Positions 3,872 through 12,885 of a DNA stretch of 35,806 bases are shown piece after piece. How positions within the stretch are numbered: the first letter of the stretch is position 1; each line of letters begins with the position of its first letter. The stretch is from contig JAKLKA010000071.1 of assembly GCA_023150915.1 (NCBI GenBank), forward strand, positions 1 through 35,806, read 5' to 3'. This DNA comes from Polyangiaceae bacterium (lineage in GTDB: Bacteria > Myxococcota_A > Polyangia > Polyangiales > Polyangiaceae). The translations under genes were made by a program, and so were the position numbers. Under the pieces are notes generated by a model. The model worked only from the letters and a program-made list of their open reading frames with translations, was not told where the DNA came from and did no database searches.

Positions 3872-4231
3872 TCAGCCGCCGTCGCCCAGATCGCACGAGC
3901 CCGAGTCGGGCGCGGGGCACGCCCCAAGGTCTTGCGACGTGAGCGCACACGACCAGCTCCCAGAGGTGCAGGTGCAGGTGTAGAACTGCCGGGGCGACTG
4001 CACGTTCAGACACGGGCAGCTCCGCAGGATCAGCTTGCACTCGAGCTCGCCGGGGTCCGGCGTGCACGCGCCAGTGGGCAGCGTGTCAGAGTCCCGCCGC
4101 GCCACGGAATCGGTGGTGGTGTGAACGCAGGGCGTTGGGTTGCCGTTCAGCCCGCTGTCGGTGTCGTCCGAGCTGGGCGAGTCGGTGCCGCAAGCGCAGA
4201 GAAGCAGAGCGAGCCAGATCGTGCGGGGCAT
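3872..4231 (-). CDS. Small Cys-rich lipoprotein, unknown function
   Basis: I start this gene at the ATG at 4231 because a near-perfect Shine-Dalgarno (AAGGAGG) lies 5 nt upstream. Longer in-frame extensions would run through the neighbouring gene. The 119-residue product opens with MPRTIWLALLLCACGTDSP, a signal peptide with a lipobox-type Cys. The mature part has a Ser/Asp-rich linker and then about a dozen cysteines, including CPC and CTC pairs, suggesting a small disulphide-bonded extracellular domain. No family is recognised. The Shine-Dalgarno sits just after the TAA of the upstream lipoprotein gene (10 bp from stop to start), so it is the last gene of a three-gene minus-strand unit beginning at 6203. 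Confidence 0.75.
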   Translation of the reverse strand: MPRTIWLALLLCACGTDSPSSDDTDSGLNGNPTPCVHTTTDSVARRDSDTLPTGACTPDPGELECKLILRSCPCLNVQSPRQFYTCTCTSGSWSCALTSQDLGACPAPDSGSCDLGDGG

Positions 4232-4241
4232 GCCTTCCTCC

Positions 4242-5096
4242 TTACTTCGTGGACGCGTCCGGATAGGTTTGCTGTTCCTCGGGCGTCTTGAATTCGTTTC
4301 CGGCGGAATCGAAGTGGCGGGTAGTGGCAAACCCACCGCTCTTGTAGTTGACGTCGTACGCTGCGCGCGCCCAGAAAGTGCCACGATGAGCGAAGGACGT
4401 GTGCCGAATCACCACCTTGCCGGGGCCGGTCGCGCCCTTGGGTAACTTGTCCGCCACGGTCTGTACCCAGGCTGGGGCTGAAGCCGCGGCCTTCAGGCTC
4501 TCGGCCTCCTGCAACACGGCAGCCGGGATCGGCGGCCAATAGACCGTTTCCGCGACAACGTCGTCGTCCGCGCTGAACCGGGCCCACGCGACTGAATCTG
4601 GGACCGGCGTGCCCGAAATTTGACGACGCAGTACGGTGTACCAGGCAACGAATCGCTCTGCGCGACCTCCCTCCGGACCGCCGCTGAGAAAGTGCTCGGA
4701 GCTCGCACCTACTGCGTCGATCTGGTTCTTGGGGAGGCCGGCCGCAACGAAGTACCCCACCACGCGGGTGTTGTGGCCTTCTGGGCCTCCCGCGGGGGGT
4801 GGTGCTGCCAGGGACGGCGCGTCGGAGTTGGGCGTGGCGAGAACAGCCCCATTGTGCGCGAATGTCGCGAACACCCCCTGCTCGCCGGCGGTCTTCACGA
4901 ACCCAAGCTCTTGCTTCTCGTGAACGCTCCCGCCAGGCTTGAACCGGGACGCGGCGAACGTGTGCTGGTAGCCGGGCGCTTCAGAAAGCACGCCGCGCTG
5001 GACGACATTGGATTGCGAAGGTGACTCATCGGGCGCACCGCCGCCGCACCCCGTTACGACCACGATCAGACACGCCGAGCGAGAGATAGCATTCAT
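4242..5096 (-). CDS. Lipoprotein, unknown function
   Basis: The 284-residue protein starts MNAISRSACLIVVVTGCGGG, with lipobox VTGC. The ATG at 5096 is preceded by an AGAGG Shine-Dalgarno 6 nt away. The mature protein has no cysteines and no recognised domain. It is mixed alpha/beta with an Ala/Pro/Gly segment near residues 90-105. It lies 15 bp downstream of the DUF6345-like gene and 10 bp upstream of the small Cys-rich lipoprotein gene, so the three are probably co-transcribed. A role alongside the secreted caspase-like protein is inference from context only. Confidence 0.8.
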   Translation of the reverse strand: MNAISRSACLIVVVTGCGGGAPDESPSQSNVVQRGVLSEAPGYQHTFAASRFKPGGSVHEKQELGFVKTAGEQGVFATFAHNGAVLATPNSDAPSLAAPPPAGGPEGHNTRVVGYFVAAGLPKNQIDAVGASSEHFLSGGPEGGRAERFVAWYTVLRRQISGTPVPDSVAWARFSADDDVVAETVYWPPIPAAVLQEAESLKAAASAPAWVQTVADKLPKGATGPGKVVIRHTSFAHRGTFWARAAYDVNYKSGGFATTRHFDSAGNEFKTPEEQQTYPDASTK

Positions 5097-5111
5097 TGGT
5101 AGCCTCTGCGT

Positions 5112-6203
5112 TCAGGGCAAATGGTAGGGGTACTGGGCCTGGTTGTAGTTGCAGATTTGTCGACCAGCCCACCAGCCGCTACTCGTTGCGTCGTTGCTGT
5201 CGAGCTTCACGCCGACCCAGCTCTCGGTGTTCACGTACCAGTTTGCCCAGCTCGCGTGCTGGGCCTGGACCCAGTTGCAGCCGCAGCCGTTGATCCCGCC
5301 GCCGCTGCAGTTGGCACCACCCAGGTCAAGCACCACGTAGATCCAGGATCCAGCCACGGACTGCCACTCGTTGGAGGCCCAGCGCGCCGCGAAGGCCGAG
5401 CCCCGATTCGGAACGTCCGCCGTGTCGCCGGTGACGGGCATGATCGTCCCGATCAGGTGAACTCCCGCGAATGCCTGGCTGAGCTGCTGCGGCGCGAACT
5501 GGGGAAGCACTCCGCAACTGACATCCAGGATCGCCATGTTGACTCCACCGTTGGTGCCAGCGCCGGACCATCCACCCGAGGTCGCGCTCTCACCCAGCTT
5601 GACCTGGCCGCCGGTGTAGTTCACATCGTTGTTGTGTGCAGACGATGTGCTGCAGGTGAACGCGCGACGGGGTGTGAAGTAGTGGCACCAGCCTTGTCCG
5701 AGCGGGGGGAATCCCGATCCGGGCGGCCCCTGCTTGCACGATGAAGGCATGGTCGCGCCCGGTGGTGGGCTATTGCACTGCGTGCTGGACGTGCAGAGTG
5801 TCGTGGTCGCTCCGTCACAGACACCATGCCCACTGAAGAACGCGATGCCATCACCGGCCCGATCGAAGTTGTTTGTGTCGTTGTCGAGCGCATTCCCAGT
5901 ACGCTCCGGATCGTACATGTCTCGATCCCAGACGGAAGAGTTCGTGTAGTTTGCGCCAGCGGTCCACCGTCCGTCTCCGGTGATCATCCCGGACCGAAAA
6001 CCGTTGTTGTTTGCTACGCGGTTGTTGAGTGCCCCACCCCAGCCGCACTGGTTTGCCACGTACTGATCGACGGCTTCGGTCGTGATCTTCGTGCCGGCAG
6101 CCGCAGGGCCGCCCGCGGCCACGGCCCCAAGGAGCGACGCTCCCAGCCCCGGGCGCCGCCACCACCGACCAGCTAAGAAACGCACCCGGGTCCGCATCTC
6201 CAT
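5112..6203 (-). CDS. Secreted DUF6345-like protein with caspase-like His-Gly and Cys motifs
   Basis: I start this 363-residue protein at the ATG at 6203 (Shine-Dalgarno-like GGGCGGAG adjacent). An upstream extension would only read antisense to the regulator gene. A signal peptide covers about residues 1-36 (GASLLGAVAAGGPAAA), so the protein is exported. Two motifs stand out: GIAFFSGHG (H126-G127) and AILDVSCGV (C230). Each is a hydrophobic strand ending in His-Gly or Asp-x-Ser-Cys-Gly, the arrangement of clan CD cysteine peptidases (caspase, gingipain and legumain families) and, as I recall, of DUF6345 proteins. The 104-residue His-Cys gap is long and holds a Cys-rich insertion (about 129-185). 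The C-terminal quarter is rich in Trp, Asn and Gly. Whether it is a peptidase is not established. It heads a minus-strand operon with two lipoproteins, divergent from a winged-helix regulator. Confidence 0.72.
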   Translation of the reverse strand: MEMRTRVRFLAGRWWRRPGLGASLLGAVAAGGPAAAGTKITTEAVDQYVANQCGWGGALNNRVANNNGFRSGMITGDGRWTAGANYTNSSVWDRDMYDPERTGNALDNDTNNFDRAGDGIAFFSGHGVCDGATTTLCTSSTQCNSPPPGATMPSSCKQGPPGSGFPPLGQGWCHYFTPRRAFTCSTSSAHNNDVNYTGGQVKLGESATSGGWSGAGTNGGVNMAILDVSCGVLPQFAPQQLSQAFAGVHLIGTIMPVTGDTADVPNRGSAFAARWASNEWQSVAGSWIYVVLDLGGANCSGGGINGCGCNWVQAQHASWANWYVNTESWVGVKLDSNDATSSGWWAGRQICNYNQAQYPYHLP

Positions 6204-6285
6204 CTCCGCCCTTTCTTCGTTCGCCACGGCCGGAGCGACTCGCGACCGCGTTCCCAACTCATACACGCCGCAGACGTCGAGCCGA

Positions 6286-6311
6286 GTTATTTTTGCGTTA
6301 GTTTTTTTCTC
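6286..6311. promoter_or_regulatory. AT-rich tract in divergent promoter region
   Basis: Within the 153-bp gap between the DUF6345-like gene (minus) and the regulator gene (plus) is a stretch with T5 and T7 runs (GTTATTTTTGCG, then GTTTTTTTCTC) in otherwise about 70% GC DNA. Read on the minus strand it is A-tract DNA upstream of the operon start, as in UP elements or bent promoter DNA. No clear -35/-10 pair is visible. Confidence 0.4.
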
Positions 6312-6344
6312 GACCGGCCGCTCGACTCGCGTCGCTCCCGGCGG

Positions 6345-6350
6345 CAGCAT
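6345..6350 (+). promoter_or_regulatory. Candidate -10 box (CAGCAT), leaderless start of the regulator gene
   Basis: CAGCAT ends 6 nt before the ATG at 6357, and no Shine-Dalgarno is present. The spacing matches the TAnnnT boxes found before several other first genes in this window. The call is inference. Confidence 0.35.
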
Positions 6351-6356
6351 CCGGGC

Positions 6357-7121
6357 ATGGCTTCTGGCAACGGGCAGGGTCGCCCGTGGGTGGATCGGAC
6401 GTGCCGGCTCGTGCTGGTCGAATGCGAACCCGACTCTGAGGGTGTCGAGCAGGCCGTGCTCTCCGCGCTGGGGGATCCGAGCGTGACGCGCGCGTTCCCC
6501 GTGGTCGTGCGGCCGTACACGGACGGCATGCTGGAGGACGCGCATGTCGTGGTGGTCGCGCAGCGGGAGGAGGGCGTTTCCCTCTGCGGTCGTGGCGAGC
6601 GAATTGCCGCGGCAGGGTTCCCAGGCCCGCTCGTCGCGGTGTGCGATCGGATGGACGAGGATCTGGCGGTCCGAGGCTACTCCGTGGGTTTCCACGCGTG
6701 GCTCACGTTGCCGCTGAGAGCGCGGGTTTTCGCCGCGCAGATCGAGGCGCTCGCGGCACGCATGATCGGGAACGTCGGGCCCCCTCAGGTCGACGTTTCG
6801 CTTCGCCGTGACCGCCGGCAACTCACGATCGACGGAACGTCCGTTCGCCTGACAGGCCGGGAGTTCGACGTCTTCTGTTACCTGCTCGCGCGGCGCGAGA
6901 TCTGGACCGACTCGGCCAGGATCATCGCGGAGGTCTTCCCGGGGAAGCACGCTCCCAGCTCGGCCGTCCTCCGGGTGCAGATCCACGCCATCCGCCACGC
7001 CCTCGGGCCGGCCCTCGCCTGGGTTCTGGAGGGGGCCGAGGGGAAAGGCTACCGGGTCACGCTCCGCCGCGACTCGACCGCGGCGTTGCGGGGAAGCCCG
7101 CACCCGAGGTACCGGCGCTGA
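6357..7121 (+). CDS. OmpR/PhoB-type winged-helix transcriptional regulator with degenerate receiver
   Basis: The 254-residue protein has a C-terminal OmpR/PhoB-type winged helix (about residues 150-245). LTGREFDVFCYLL is the first helix, SAVLRVQIHAIRHAL the recognition helix, and EGKGYRV the wing. The N-terminal ~130 residues have the strand/helix rhythm of a response-regulator receiver (RLVLVECEPD at the first strand). However, the strand where the phosphoacceptor Asp should end reads HVVVVAQREE, and no conserved Lys is evident, so phosphorylation control is probably lost. It is divergent from the DUF6345-like operon with a 153-bp shared intergenic region and is the obvious candidate to control it. 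It converges with nuoD. The DNA-binding domain is secure; the target is inferred. Confidence 0.85.
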   Translation: MASGNGQGRPWVDRTCRLVLVECEPDSEGVEQAVLSALGDPSVTRAFPVVVRPYTDGMLEDAHVVVVAQREEGVSLCGRGERIAAAGFPGPLVAVCDRMDEDLAVRGYSVGFHAWLTLPLRARVFAAQIEALAARMIGNVGPPQVDVSLRRDRRQLTIDGTSVRLTGREFDVFCYLLARREIWTDSARIIAEVFPGKHAPSSAVLRVQIHAIRHALGPALAWVLEGAEGKGYRVTLRRDSTAALRGSPHPRYRR

Positions 7122-10161: not shown

Positions 10162-10395
10162 GAGCCGGCGTTTCTAGCACGAGTCCGCGAGGCGACCGAT
10201 ACTCCAGATTCGCGGGGGAAACCCGGGCTTGCGCTGGGGCCGGGGGGCTCTAAGCAAGCCGGCCCGGCGGGGGGGAAGATGCGGGCTCTGGCGTCGGTAT
10301 GAGCCCCCGGCGTCGTGTGTCCGCTCGCTGGTGAGCTTCACGATGCCCCCGCCGCGGGAGGGTCGCAGCGGGCACTTCTTGGAATGGGAGCAGAC

Positions 10396-12885
10396 ATGAA
10401 CATCAAACCTCGATTGAAACTGCGTTCGGCGATCATCACCGCCGCAGCGCTCGCCGCCATCGCGGCCGCCCCCCTCGCGGGTTGTGGCAGTGACAGCGGA
10501 TCATCGACGGGAAGTCCGGGCGGCGACAGCGGTGTCGGCGGCTCCGCGGCAACCGGCGGCATGGGCGGCAGCGGCGCCACGGGTGGCAGCGGCGCCACCG
10601 GCGGCAGCGGCGCCACGGGCGGCGGCGGCGGCCAGTGTCCTGGAGCGACGCTGTGCAACGGCAAGTGCGTCGACACCACCCTGGATCCGGCCAACTGCGG
10701 GGCGTGCGACGCGGCCTGCAAGACGGGCGAGCTGTGCTCGGCCGGCAAGTGCGCGTCGTCGTGCCTGGGTGGCACCACCGAGTGCAGCAACAAGTGCGTC
10801 GACACCCAGATCGACCCCGCCAACTGCGGCGCCTGCGGCACCGCCTGCAAGTCCGGCGAGGTCTGCTCGGCCGGCAAGTGCGCGTCGTCGTGCCTGGGTG
10901 GCACCACCGAGTGCAGCAACAAGTGCGTCGACACCCAGATCGACCCCGCCAACTGCGGCGCCTGCGGCACCGCCTGCAAGACCGGCGAGGTCTGTTCGTC
11001 GGGGCAGTGCGCCAGCCAGTGCCTGGGCGGCACGGTGCTGTGCGGCAACAAGTGCGTCGACACCCAGATCGACCCCGCCAACTGCGGCGCCTGCGGCACC
11101 GCGTGCTCGGGCGGCCAGGTCTGCTCCACCGGCGCGTGTGGCCTGACCTGCACCGGCGGCACCACCAAGTGCGGCACGGTGTGCGTCGACACCAACACCG
11201 ACAGCGCGAATTGCGGGGCCTGCGGCACCGCCTGCACCGGCGGTCAGGTCTGCTCGACCGGCACCTGCAGCTTGCAGTGCTCGGGCGGCGCCACCAAGTG
11301 CGGCACCACCTGCGTCGACACCAACACCGACCCTGGCAACTGCGGCGGCTGCGGCAACGCCTGCCCCAGCGGTCAGGTCTGCTCGGCAGGCGCCTGCAGC
11401 TTGCAGTGCTCGGGCGGTACCACCAAGTGCGGCACCACCTGCGTCGACACCAAGACCGACGGCGCCAACTGCGGCGCTTGCGGCAACGCCTGCACCACCG
11501 GTCAGGTTTGCACCAACGGCGCGTGCGCCAGCGTGTGCGGCGGCAGCCTCACCAAGTGCGGCAACTCGTGCGTCGACACCCAGACCGATCTGGCCAACTG
11601 CGGCACTTGCGGCAACGCCTGCGCCCCCGGCGCCAAGTGCGTCACTGGCACCTGCCAGCAGTGCAACAGCGCCACGACCGACTGCGACGGCGACGGCTGG
11701 CTCGCGTCGGAAGGCGACTGCTGCGACAAGCCCGGCACCTGTGGCAGTGAGCCGCAGTACGTGAACCCGGGCGCGGTCGAGGTCGTGGGTAACGGAATCG
11801 ACGACAACTGCAACGCCAAGGTCGACCTATTCGACCAGGATGACGCGCTGCCCTGCGACCAGACGCTGGCCTCGAACTCGGCCACGGCCACCGACTACGC
11901 CAAGGCCATTGGCGTGTGTCGCACCACCACCGAGACGCCGGCCCTGAAGAAGGACAAGACCTGGGGCCTGATCAGCGCAGAATTGCTCCGCGCCGACGGC
12001 TCGGCGCTTGGCGACGCACGCGCGCGCTCGATCCGCCCGAAGTTCGGCACGAGCAACGTGCCGATCGAGGGCAGCTCGATGGCGGTGTTCTCCAGCGGCA
12101 TCGCGTCCGACGCCACCCAGACCCTTCCGGGTCCGAACGGCGGCGCCCCGGGCAGCAGCAACGTCAGCACGACCCACGCACCGTCGAGCTCGGTGGACGT
12201 CGCCGCCTGCACCGACGCACGCTGCATCAAGGACTGGTTCACCACCGCGAACCCGCCGCTCAAGGCTGCCAATGCCTTGCCGGTGGCGCCGAACTGCGGC
12301 TCGGGCACCTCGGGTGGCCCGAACCTGGCCCGCGACTCGGTCATGCTGCGGCTGCGCCTGCGCGCTCCGACCAACGCTCGCGCGTTCTCGTTCAACTCGT
12401 ATTTCCTGAGCGCGGAGTATCCCGAGTACGTGTGCTCGAACTTCAACGACCAGCTGGTCGCGCTGGTGGACACGCCGAGCGGCGCGCCCTCGCCCATCCC
12501 GAACCCGGTCGACAAGAACCTGATGACGTACCTGGACTCGGCCGGAAAGAAGTGGCCGATCGGCATCAACATCGCGGCGGGCACCAGCTTGTTCGCTGTG
12601 TGTGAGAGCCAGACGGCCAACCCGGGCTGCTGGGACACCAGCGTGAACACCGCGTCCTGCGCGGCGGGCATCGGCGGCCTGCTGGGCACCGGCTTCGAGA
12701 AGTCGGGGTCGTGCACCGTGGGTGGCGGCACCTTCTGGCTGACGACGGCGGGCAACGTCGTCCCGGGTCAGATCGTGGAGCTGCGCGTGGTGGTCTGGGA
12801 CGTGGGTGACACCGCCTTCGACTCGGCCGTGCTGCTCGACGGCTTCAAGTGGCTGTCGAACGCCACGCTGCCGGGCACCGGCTGA
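10396..12885 (+). CDS. Large surface lipoprotein with eight Cys-rich repeats, MopE-like metal-binding motif and choice-of-anchor-L-like domain
   Basis: I start this 829-residue protein at the ATG at 10396 (Shine-Dalgarno GGGAG 6 nt upstream), which gives a clean signal peptide with lipobox LAGC. A Gly/Ala/Ser/Thr linker follows (about 25-80). Residues 81-422 are eight tandem repeats of 42-43 residues, each with eight cysteines around the core CVDT..DPANCGACG.AC. About residues 433-475 contain DCDGDGW and GNGIDDNCNAKVD, the motif of MopE-related putative metal-binding proteins. The C-terminal ~350 residues resemble myxobacterial choice-of-anchor L domains, with FSSGIASDA, FNSYFLSAEYPEY and VWDVGDTAFDSAVLLDGFKW. 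It is probably displayed on the outer surface; ligand and function are unknown. A 54-bp piece of a paralogue survives at 15094-15147. Confidence 0.85.
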   Translation: MNIKPRLKLRSAIITAAALAAIAAAPLAGCGSDSGSSTGSPGGDSGVGGSAATGGMGGSGATGGSGATGGSGATGGGGGQCPGATLCNGKCVDTTLDPANCGACDAACKTGELCSAGKCASSCLGGTTECSNKCVDTQIDPANCGACGTACKSGEVCSAGKCASSCLGGTTECSNKCVDTQIDPANCGACGTACKTGEVCSSGQCASQCLGGTVLCGNKCVDTQIDPANCGACGTACSGGQVCSTGACGLTCTGGTTKCGTVCVDTNTDSANCGACGTACTGGQVCSTGTCSLQCSGGATKCGTTCVDTNTDPGNCGGCGNACPSGQVCSAGACSLQCSGGTTKCGTTCVDTKTDGANCGACGNACTTGQVCTNGACASVCGGSLTKCGNSCVDTQTDLANCGTCGNACAPGAKCVTGTCQQCNSATTDCDGDGWLASEGDCCDKPGTCGSEPQYVNPGAVEVVGNGIDDNCNAKVDLFDQDDALPCDQTLASNSATATDYAKAIGVCRTTTETPALKKDKTWGLISAELLRADGSALGDARARSIRPKFGTSNVPIEGSSMAVFSSGIASDATQTLPGPNGGAPGSSNVSTTHAPSSSVDVAACTDARCIKDWFTTANPPLKAANALPVAPNCGSGTSGGPNLARDSVMLRLRLRAPTNARAFSFNSYFLSAEYPEYVCSNFNDQLVALVDTPSGAPSPIPNPVDKNLMTYLDSAGKKWPIGINIAAGTSLFAVCESQTANPGCWDTSVNTASCAAGIGGLLGTGFEKSGSCTVGGGTFWLTTAGNVVPGQIVELRVVVWDVGDTAFDSAVLLDGFKWLSNATLPGTG
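10636..11661 (+). repeat. Eight tandem ~129-bp coding repeats (43-residue Cys-rich units)
   Basis: There are eight in-frame units (42+43x6+42 residues). Cysteines fall at unit positions 1, 8, 12, 22, 25, 29, 35 and 40. Units 1-3 share an exact 117-nt direct repeat (10735-10851 equals 10864-10980, offset 129 nt), which indicates recent duplication or gene conversion. Later units are diverged. Confidence 0.9.

Follow-up and report, generated by a model that had tools for sequence, protein, structure and literature searches.

Four genes and a divergent DUF6345 protein

The subject of this report is a set of four genes at positions 3872-7121 of a 35,806-nucleotide stretch of DNA (the window) from a Polyangiaceae bacterium (assembly GCA_023150915.1, contig JAKLKA010000071.1, positions 1-35,806, forward strand). 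Three of the genes lie on the minus strand, in the order P1, P2, P3. P1 (5112-6203) encodes an exported DUF6345-like protein of 363 amino acids, P2 (4242-5096) a putative lipoprotein of 284 amino acids and P3 (3872-4231) a Cys-rich putative lipoprotein of 119 amino acids. The fourth gene, P4 (6357-7121), is on the plus strand and encodes an OmpR-type regulator with a degenerate receiver; a divergent intergenic region of 153 bases (6204-6356) separates it from P1. All four genes and this region lie where an original prediction, made for the same DNA, had placed them. That prediction also held that the exported protein is co-transcribed with two lipoproteins, and the layout bears this out. The gaps between P1 and P2 and between P2 and P3 are 15 and 10 nucleotides, and an AAGGAGG ahead of P3 overlaps the P2 stop codon, so that the three genes very likely form one transcript. 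By eye, P2 begins with the lipobox-like motif VTGC and P3 with LCAC.

Export of P1 had likewise been proposed, and its N-terminus does read by eye as a signal peptide (residues 1-36, 6096-6203, minus strand) cleaved between the Ala and Gly of an A-x-A-G site. We found eight long copies of P1 in seven genomes (the window, L012, L013, L014, L015, L016, L018 and L049). The A-x-A-G site is present in six of these; in the other two, cleavage at small residues was assumed (ALA/SK and AAA/QS, the slash marking the cut). Of eight family members, two match the DUF6345 model, PF19872, directly, the better at 4.4e-9. A profile-profile comparison was made with a canonical DUF6345 profile. A search of the phylum for DUF6345 matched 13 of 282 genomes, with the window's own protein below the cut-off, and yielded 17 places outside the window; 15 domains from these make up the canonical set, from which L064 (a near-copy of L063) and the frameshifted L054 were left out. 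The P1 profile matched the canonical profile at 94.9% (E 4.1e-8) over 185 columns, and every comparison of P1 or DUF6345 with eleven other profiles gave 0.64% or less. By this measure P1 is a genuine, if divergent, member of DUF6345.

In the profile alignment the canonical FFTGHA meets FFSGHG of P1, and the canonical AACGPL meets VSCGVL. Because these motifs align, H126 (codon 5826-5828, minus strand) and C230 (5514-5516, minus strand) are the family His and Cys, within the SGHG and DVSC motifs to which the original prediction had drawn attention. Both residues are conserved in all 15 canonical domains, where each ends a hydrophobic stretch (by eye), and a Gly follows the His in 14 of them, the exception being L051 with Ala. 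Within the long homologues H126 is invariant (8/8), even in copies that lack C230. P1 thus shares with DUF6345 the positions of the His and of the strand-end Cys. It differs in having a longer, Cys-rich stretch between the two, and an additional Cys three residues after the His (C129, 5817-5819, minus strand).

The order and setting of these residues are those of the dyad in the clan CD peptidases (caspase C14, gingipain C25, clostripain C11 and legumain C13). According to PMC4357240, clan CD peptidases share a His/Cys dyad, whose two residues stand at the ends of strands 3 and 4, and a Gly next to the His. At the level of sequence, P1 has the His before the Cys and the Gly beside the His, and in the P1 family, as judged by eye, both residues fall at the ends of hydrophobic stretches. 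PMC4850288 puts the dyad of PmC11, a member of the clostripain family, at the ends of two strands of the core and calls these strands homologous.

A partner superfamily for DUF6345

The firm new result concerns P2, one of the two lipoproteins that had been called unrecognised. A region resembling P2 lies beside or is fused to DUF6345 in 15 of the 17 other places found in the phylum (14 of 16 when the near-copy L064 is omitted). In two of these the partner is fused, ahead of the DUF6345 domain in L051 and after it in L053. In the other 13 (L031, L052 and L054-L064) it is a separate gene close downstream on the same strand, with another gene intervening in L057. A plasmid-encoded protein of Deinococcus peraridilitoris also carries the partner region fused ahead of its DUF6345 domain.

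The partners were initially chosen by eye for their G-x-P-V core, after which they were tested with profiles that left one group out at a time. In this test P2 scored 92% (E 5.4e-7) and eight other groups scored 49-98%, with none of 60 control open reading frames (ORFs) reaching the partner scores; these controls, of at least 200 amino acids, were drawn from 106 neighbouring ORFs, not all of which are real genes. Each score applies to a whole group, and L064 was not itself scored. The partner in L031 is marginal, at 36.2, where the highest control reached 33.5. On this profile evidence P2 belongs to a divergent superfamily that is recurrently paired with DUF6345. Among the loci of the f42 group, a third gene in L056 (2706-3539) and L061 (2160-2879) is FGE-sulfatase-like (1.6e-23 and 1.6e-21); the third genes of the other f42 loci were read by eye only.

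A frame with a P3-like Cys pattern follows P2 on the same strand at all eight long copies, about 670 nucleotides further down in L018. The search for it used a plain Cys-spacing pattern run without a control, and these genomes may contain many Cys-rich lipoproteins. BLAST found P3 at E≤0.01 in three of the six long-copy loci given to it (L014, L015 and L016); L012 matched at 0.87, and L013 and L018 gave no match. Since BLAST reaches only these three loci, the homology of the P3-like frames is less certain. An orphan P3 in another species of the genus (L191:4570-4926, minus strand) is 88% identical to that of the window, with a ratio of nonsynonymous to synonymous substitution rates (dN/dS) of 0.17. 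This orphan adjoins two genes that by eye resemble an antitoxin and a MazF-type toxin.

Distribution, decay and the local regulator

P2 directly follows P1 in all eight long copies, and with the P3-like frames this supports part of what had been described as a self-contained module, from which the regulator must be removed for reasons given below. The module is rare. P1 was found in 4 of 377 genomes of the phylum and 8 of 108 of the family, and its profile in 10 of 317 genomes of the class, broken copies included; P2 was found in 8 of 106 family genomes, once as a 40-residue fragment. Searches of genome contigs, viral contigs and phages revealed no relative. A plasmid search found none for P1; with the canonical domain of L051 it returned one Deinococcus plasmid.

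At several loci the module is absent or in decay. Its flanks in the window are genes that, from their translations, we take to encode an alpha-amylase-type protein on one side and NuoD on the other. Another species of the genus (G099) has the two flanking genes about 1.4 kb apart, compared with 3.4 kb in the window, and nothing between them matches P1-P4 at E≤1e-3. Elsewhere in the genus (L050:5280-6253, plus strand) the N-terminus of P1 is fused in frame to the C-terminus of P2, with a P3-like stretch next in another frame; read from its frames, this remnant is an internal deletion. The window's own genome carries a decayed P2-P3 end on contig C50 (L212:3948-4784, plus strand), where P2 was recognised by profile and P3 by eye. 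Two further P1 genes are broken, that of L017 ending before position 230 and that of L019 lacking the corresponding segment. A long stretch of degenerate repeats at L211 (G289:C2:223000-233000) encloses a fragment of P2 together with a P3-like frame, and frames nearby resemble, by eye, an IS66 transposase.

This pattern bears on the idea that P1 is a secreted protease directed against competitors or prey, with P2 and P3 as lipoproteins that confer immunity on the producer. An effector of this kind might well be accessory and rare, as P1 is, and might leave decayed copies in related species and in the same genome. The GC content at third codon positions (GC3) is also lower in P1 (0.77) and P2 (0.75) than in the four flanking genes (0.88-0.93), with P3 at 0.88 and P4 at 0.85. 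The orphan P3, under a low dN/dS beside its antitoxin- and toxin-like neighbours, and an orphan P2 described below are what would be expected of orphan immunity genes. However, three other proteins carry DUF6345 with a P2-like domain fused to it, which is hardly expected of an immunity protein, and neither a means of toxin delivery nor a variable C-terminus was seen, although neither was specifically looked for. We consider this explanation rather improbable.

P4 had been predicted to be a divergent winged-helix regulator that has lost the receiver Asp and is dedicated to the module. The first part of this description holds. Its winged helix matches Trans_reg_C (3.5e-9). No Pfam receiver matches at E≤1, and the alignments to NCBIfam response-regulator models are weak and for the most part begin near residue 70. 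By eye the stretch AHVVVVAQ, where the phosphorylated Asp would be expected, contains none. Dedication to the module is not supported. No relative of P4 was found at the ten other module loci (best E 0.21), on which ground we reject P4 as a part of the module, and the proteins closest to it are paralogues at other places in the genus. Of 106 family genomes, 101 have OmpR-type matches; P4 itself aside, the six top-scoring ones (E 1.1e-49 to 1.5e-23) all come from the same genus. The five open paralogues that we aligned (L194-L198) share a C-terminal PH-x-RYR tail, and by this alignment P4 is one of a family of pseudo-receiver regulators at the level of the genus. In four of the five loci the regulator gene diverges directly from its neighbour, which encodes a trypsin-like protein (PF00089, 1.3e-6) in one case, a membrane-type protein in another and one and the same 672-residue lipoprotein-like protein in the remaining two. 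The fifth regulator, in L197, is separated from a divergent gene for a 193-residue lipoprotein-like protein by a second paralogue, apparently broken. Because the paralogues face other genes, a divergent local regulator is a habit of the genus and not of the module. P4 resembles the atypical OmpR/PhoB regulators ChxR and HP1043 in combining a winged helix with a receiver that has no role in phosphorylation, and differs from them in its shared PH-x-RYR tail and in belonging to a paralogous family within one genus.

Two other regulators lie near copies of the module. In G337 a P4-like match (27%, 1.9e-12) is found about 10 kb from it, and three other genomes of that genus have a regulator 90-99% identical to this one; as no P1 was reported for those three, we read the nearness as coincidence and reject the gene as linked to the module. 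The P1 gene of L049 has a different regulator immediately upstream, one of the Fis type whose receiver match (0.0032) is below the cut-off. Within 6204-6356 itself, a 25-nucleotide imperfect repeat was discarded as being at chance level, since 3 of 60 first-order simulated sequences contained one equally good, and promoter and terminator scans gave no signal above shuffled sequences. Farther along the window (10315-12885, plus strand) the ORF list shows a long protein with about eight Cys-rich repeats of the form CVDT-x-x-D-x-x-NCG-x-C-x-x-AC.

A candidate surface peptidase and its partner

Our preferred reading, to which we assign a probability of roughly 0.4, is that P1 is a surface peptidase, probably of the clan CD fold, with P2 as a propeptide-like partner acting in trans. 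P1 would be an exported DUF6345 protein, most likely with the caspase-haemoglobinase fold and its His/Cys dyad. The P2 lipoprotein would act on it as a folding chaperone, an inhibitor or a tether, and would thereby do in trans the job of the fused domain in other lineages. P3, small and rich in Cys, would be a further lipoprotein that probably belongs to this complex at the surface. The divergent promoters are probably controlled locally by P4, which would not be intrinsic to the module.

The propeptide analogy comes from a resemblance to FTP/PepSY domains, which act as propeptides and whose fold is known from the prodomains of metallopeptidases. Of six outside profiles compared with the pooled partners, FTP (PF07504) was the best, at 6.6% (E 0.0055), and the other five gave at most 0.21%. 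The region of P2 that aligns both with the other partners and with FTP is its core, residues 121-192 (4521-4736, minus strand). Like FTP, the partners have strand-like stretches after a short G-x-P-V core; they differ in that they fall below threshold everywhere, and in that they go with a putative cysteine peptidase, mostly as a separate protein, whereas the FTP/PepSY domains belong to secreted metallopeptidases. The link is weak, and we treat it as a lead and not as membership.

A number of observations weigh against this reading or qualify it, at each of its steps. The membership of P1 in DUF6345 escapes the usual search, since PF19872 reaches 24 bits in the six-frame Pfam search against a curated cut-off of 26.9, and hmmscan of P1 alone listed no DUF6345 match. 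Pairwise links of P2 to individual partners are weaker than the profile test, at 33% with L054/L055/L063 and 0.25-3.4% with five others, and the gene next to L065/L066 is unsupported as a partner (1.5%). P2 alone compares with FTP at 0.13%. It has no Pfam FTP or PepSY match, one of its seven homologues has a match of 0.11, below the cut-off, and in a scan of ten other proteins FTP matched three (0.05-0.12), all of one related group, with unrelated families scoring equally (0.016-0.1). The genes can also be found apart. A complete P2 without P1 lies at a contig end in G392, which rules out the notion that P2 occurs solely with P1, and an orphan P3 exists in G276. As to the fold, single-sequence AlphaFold2 models of P1 (326 residues) and of part of P2 (238 residues) were unusable, with mean predicted local distance difference test (pLDDT) values of 28.6 and 35.8. 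No profile link was found between DUF6345 and C25, C14 or CHAT; this comparison is without power, because those three families do not find each other either. Finally, the position of C230 is occupied by Cys in only five of the eight long homologues, being F in L015 and L016 (from one genome) and Q in L049, and the Cys counts of the eight mature proteins are all even (12, 12, 8, 12, 14, 12, 14 and 10), as would be expected more readily if C230 were bonded than if it were a free nucleophile.

The fold evidence raises the question of whether DUF6345 is a peptidase fold at all. Its His and Cys could be ligands of a metal or cofactor, or could give form to a domain like those of lectins or adhesins. 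The failure of AlphaFold2 on P1 leaves room for this, and so does the search of solved structures, which gave no convincing match, the best values being 0.17 for P1, 0.18 for its profile and 0.77 for the canonical profile. Against it, the order of His and Cys, the Gly beside the His and the ends of the hydrophobic stretches are clan CD features (PMC4357240), and we regard a non-peptidase fold as quite unlikely.

The Cys pattern leads to another alternative, that P1 is retired or redox-locked by a C129-C230 disulphide beside H126, so that it would be either a structural or binding protein of the surface or an enzyme activated by reduction. Such a disulphide may be present, as a redox latch or the mark of a retired site. 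The Cys at H+3 occurs in exactly the five long homologues that have C230 and in none of the three that lack it, and it is absent from all 15 canonical domains; the uniformly even counts of the long homologues point the same way. In the canonical domains the count is odd in 9 of 17 and even in 8, although these were counted from the domain and not from the whole mature protein. In favour of the dyad, the family Cys of the D. peraridilitoris protein is its sole Cys besides that of the lipobox, and it can therefore take part in no intramolecular disulphide there. Against a retired or locked P1, H126 is conserved in all eight copies, even those without C230, and the disulphide is predicted from sequence. 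The co-occurrence is only suggestive, because eight sequences with perhaps two independent losses (judged without a tree) could agree by coincidence. We therefore hold a retired or locked P1 to be somewhat unlikely. In either case no cysteine peptidase activity is to be expected of the three copies without C230, and the proteolytic role that had originally been proposed as a possibility is weakened by their existence, while the dyad order continues to favour it.

Returning to the peptidase with a partner in trans, a bolder form of it would make DUF6345 and its partner an undescribed class of surface-tethered, caspase-fold proteases, in which a chaperone or inhibitor works like a prodomain both in cis and in trans and the C129-C230 latch gates the window's branch by redox. 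This form we think unlikely. A search of 5.39 million papers returned no mention of DUF6345, and no pairing of DUF6345 with the partner was noted among the listed literature on PepSY and propeptides, clan CD, caspase and FGE, and atypical regulators.

The family of P4 suggests a way in which individual surface genes of the genus may each be placed under a switch of their own that needs no phosphorylation. For DUF6345 the recurrent pairing means that an uncharacterised Pfam family gains a partner and a testable function. If a cysteine peptidase does have a propeptide-like partner that works on it in trans, another class of protease would be making use of a fold familiar from the prodomains of metallopeptidases.

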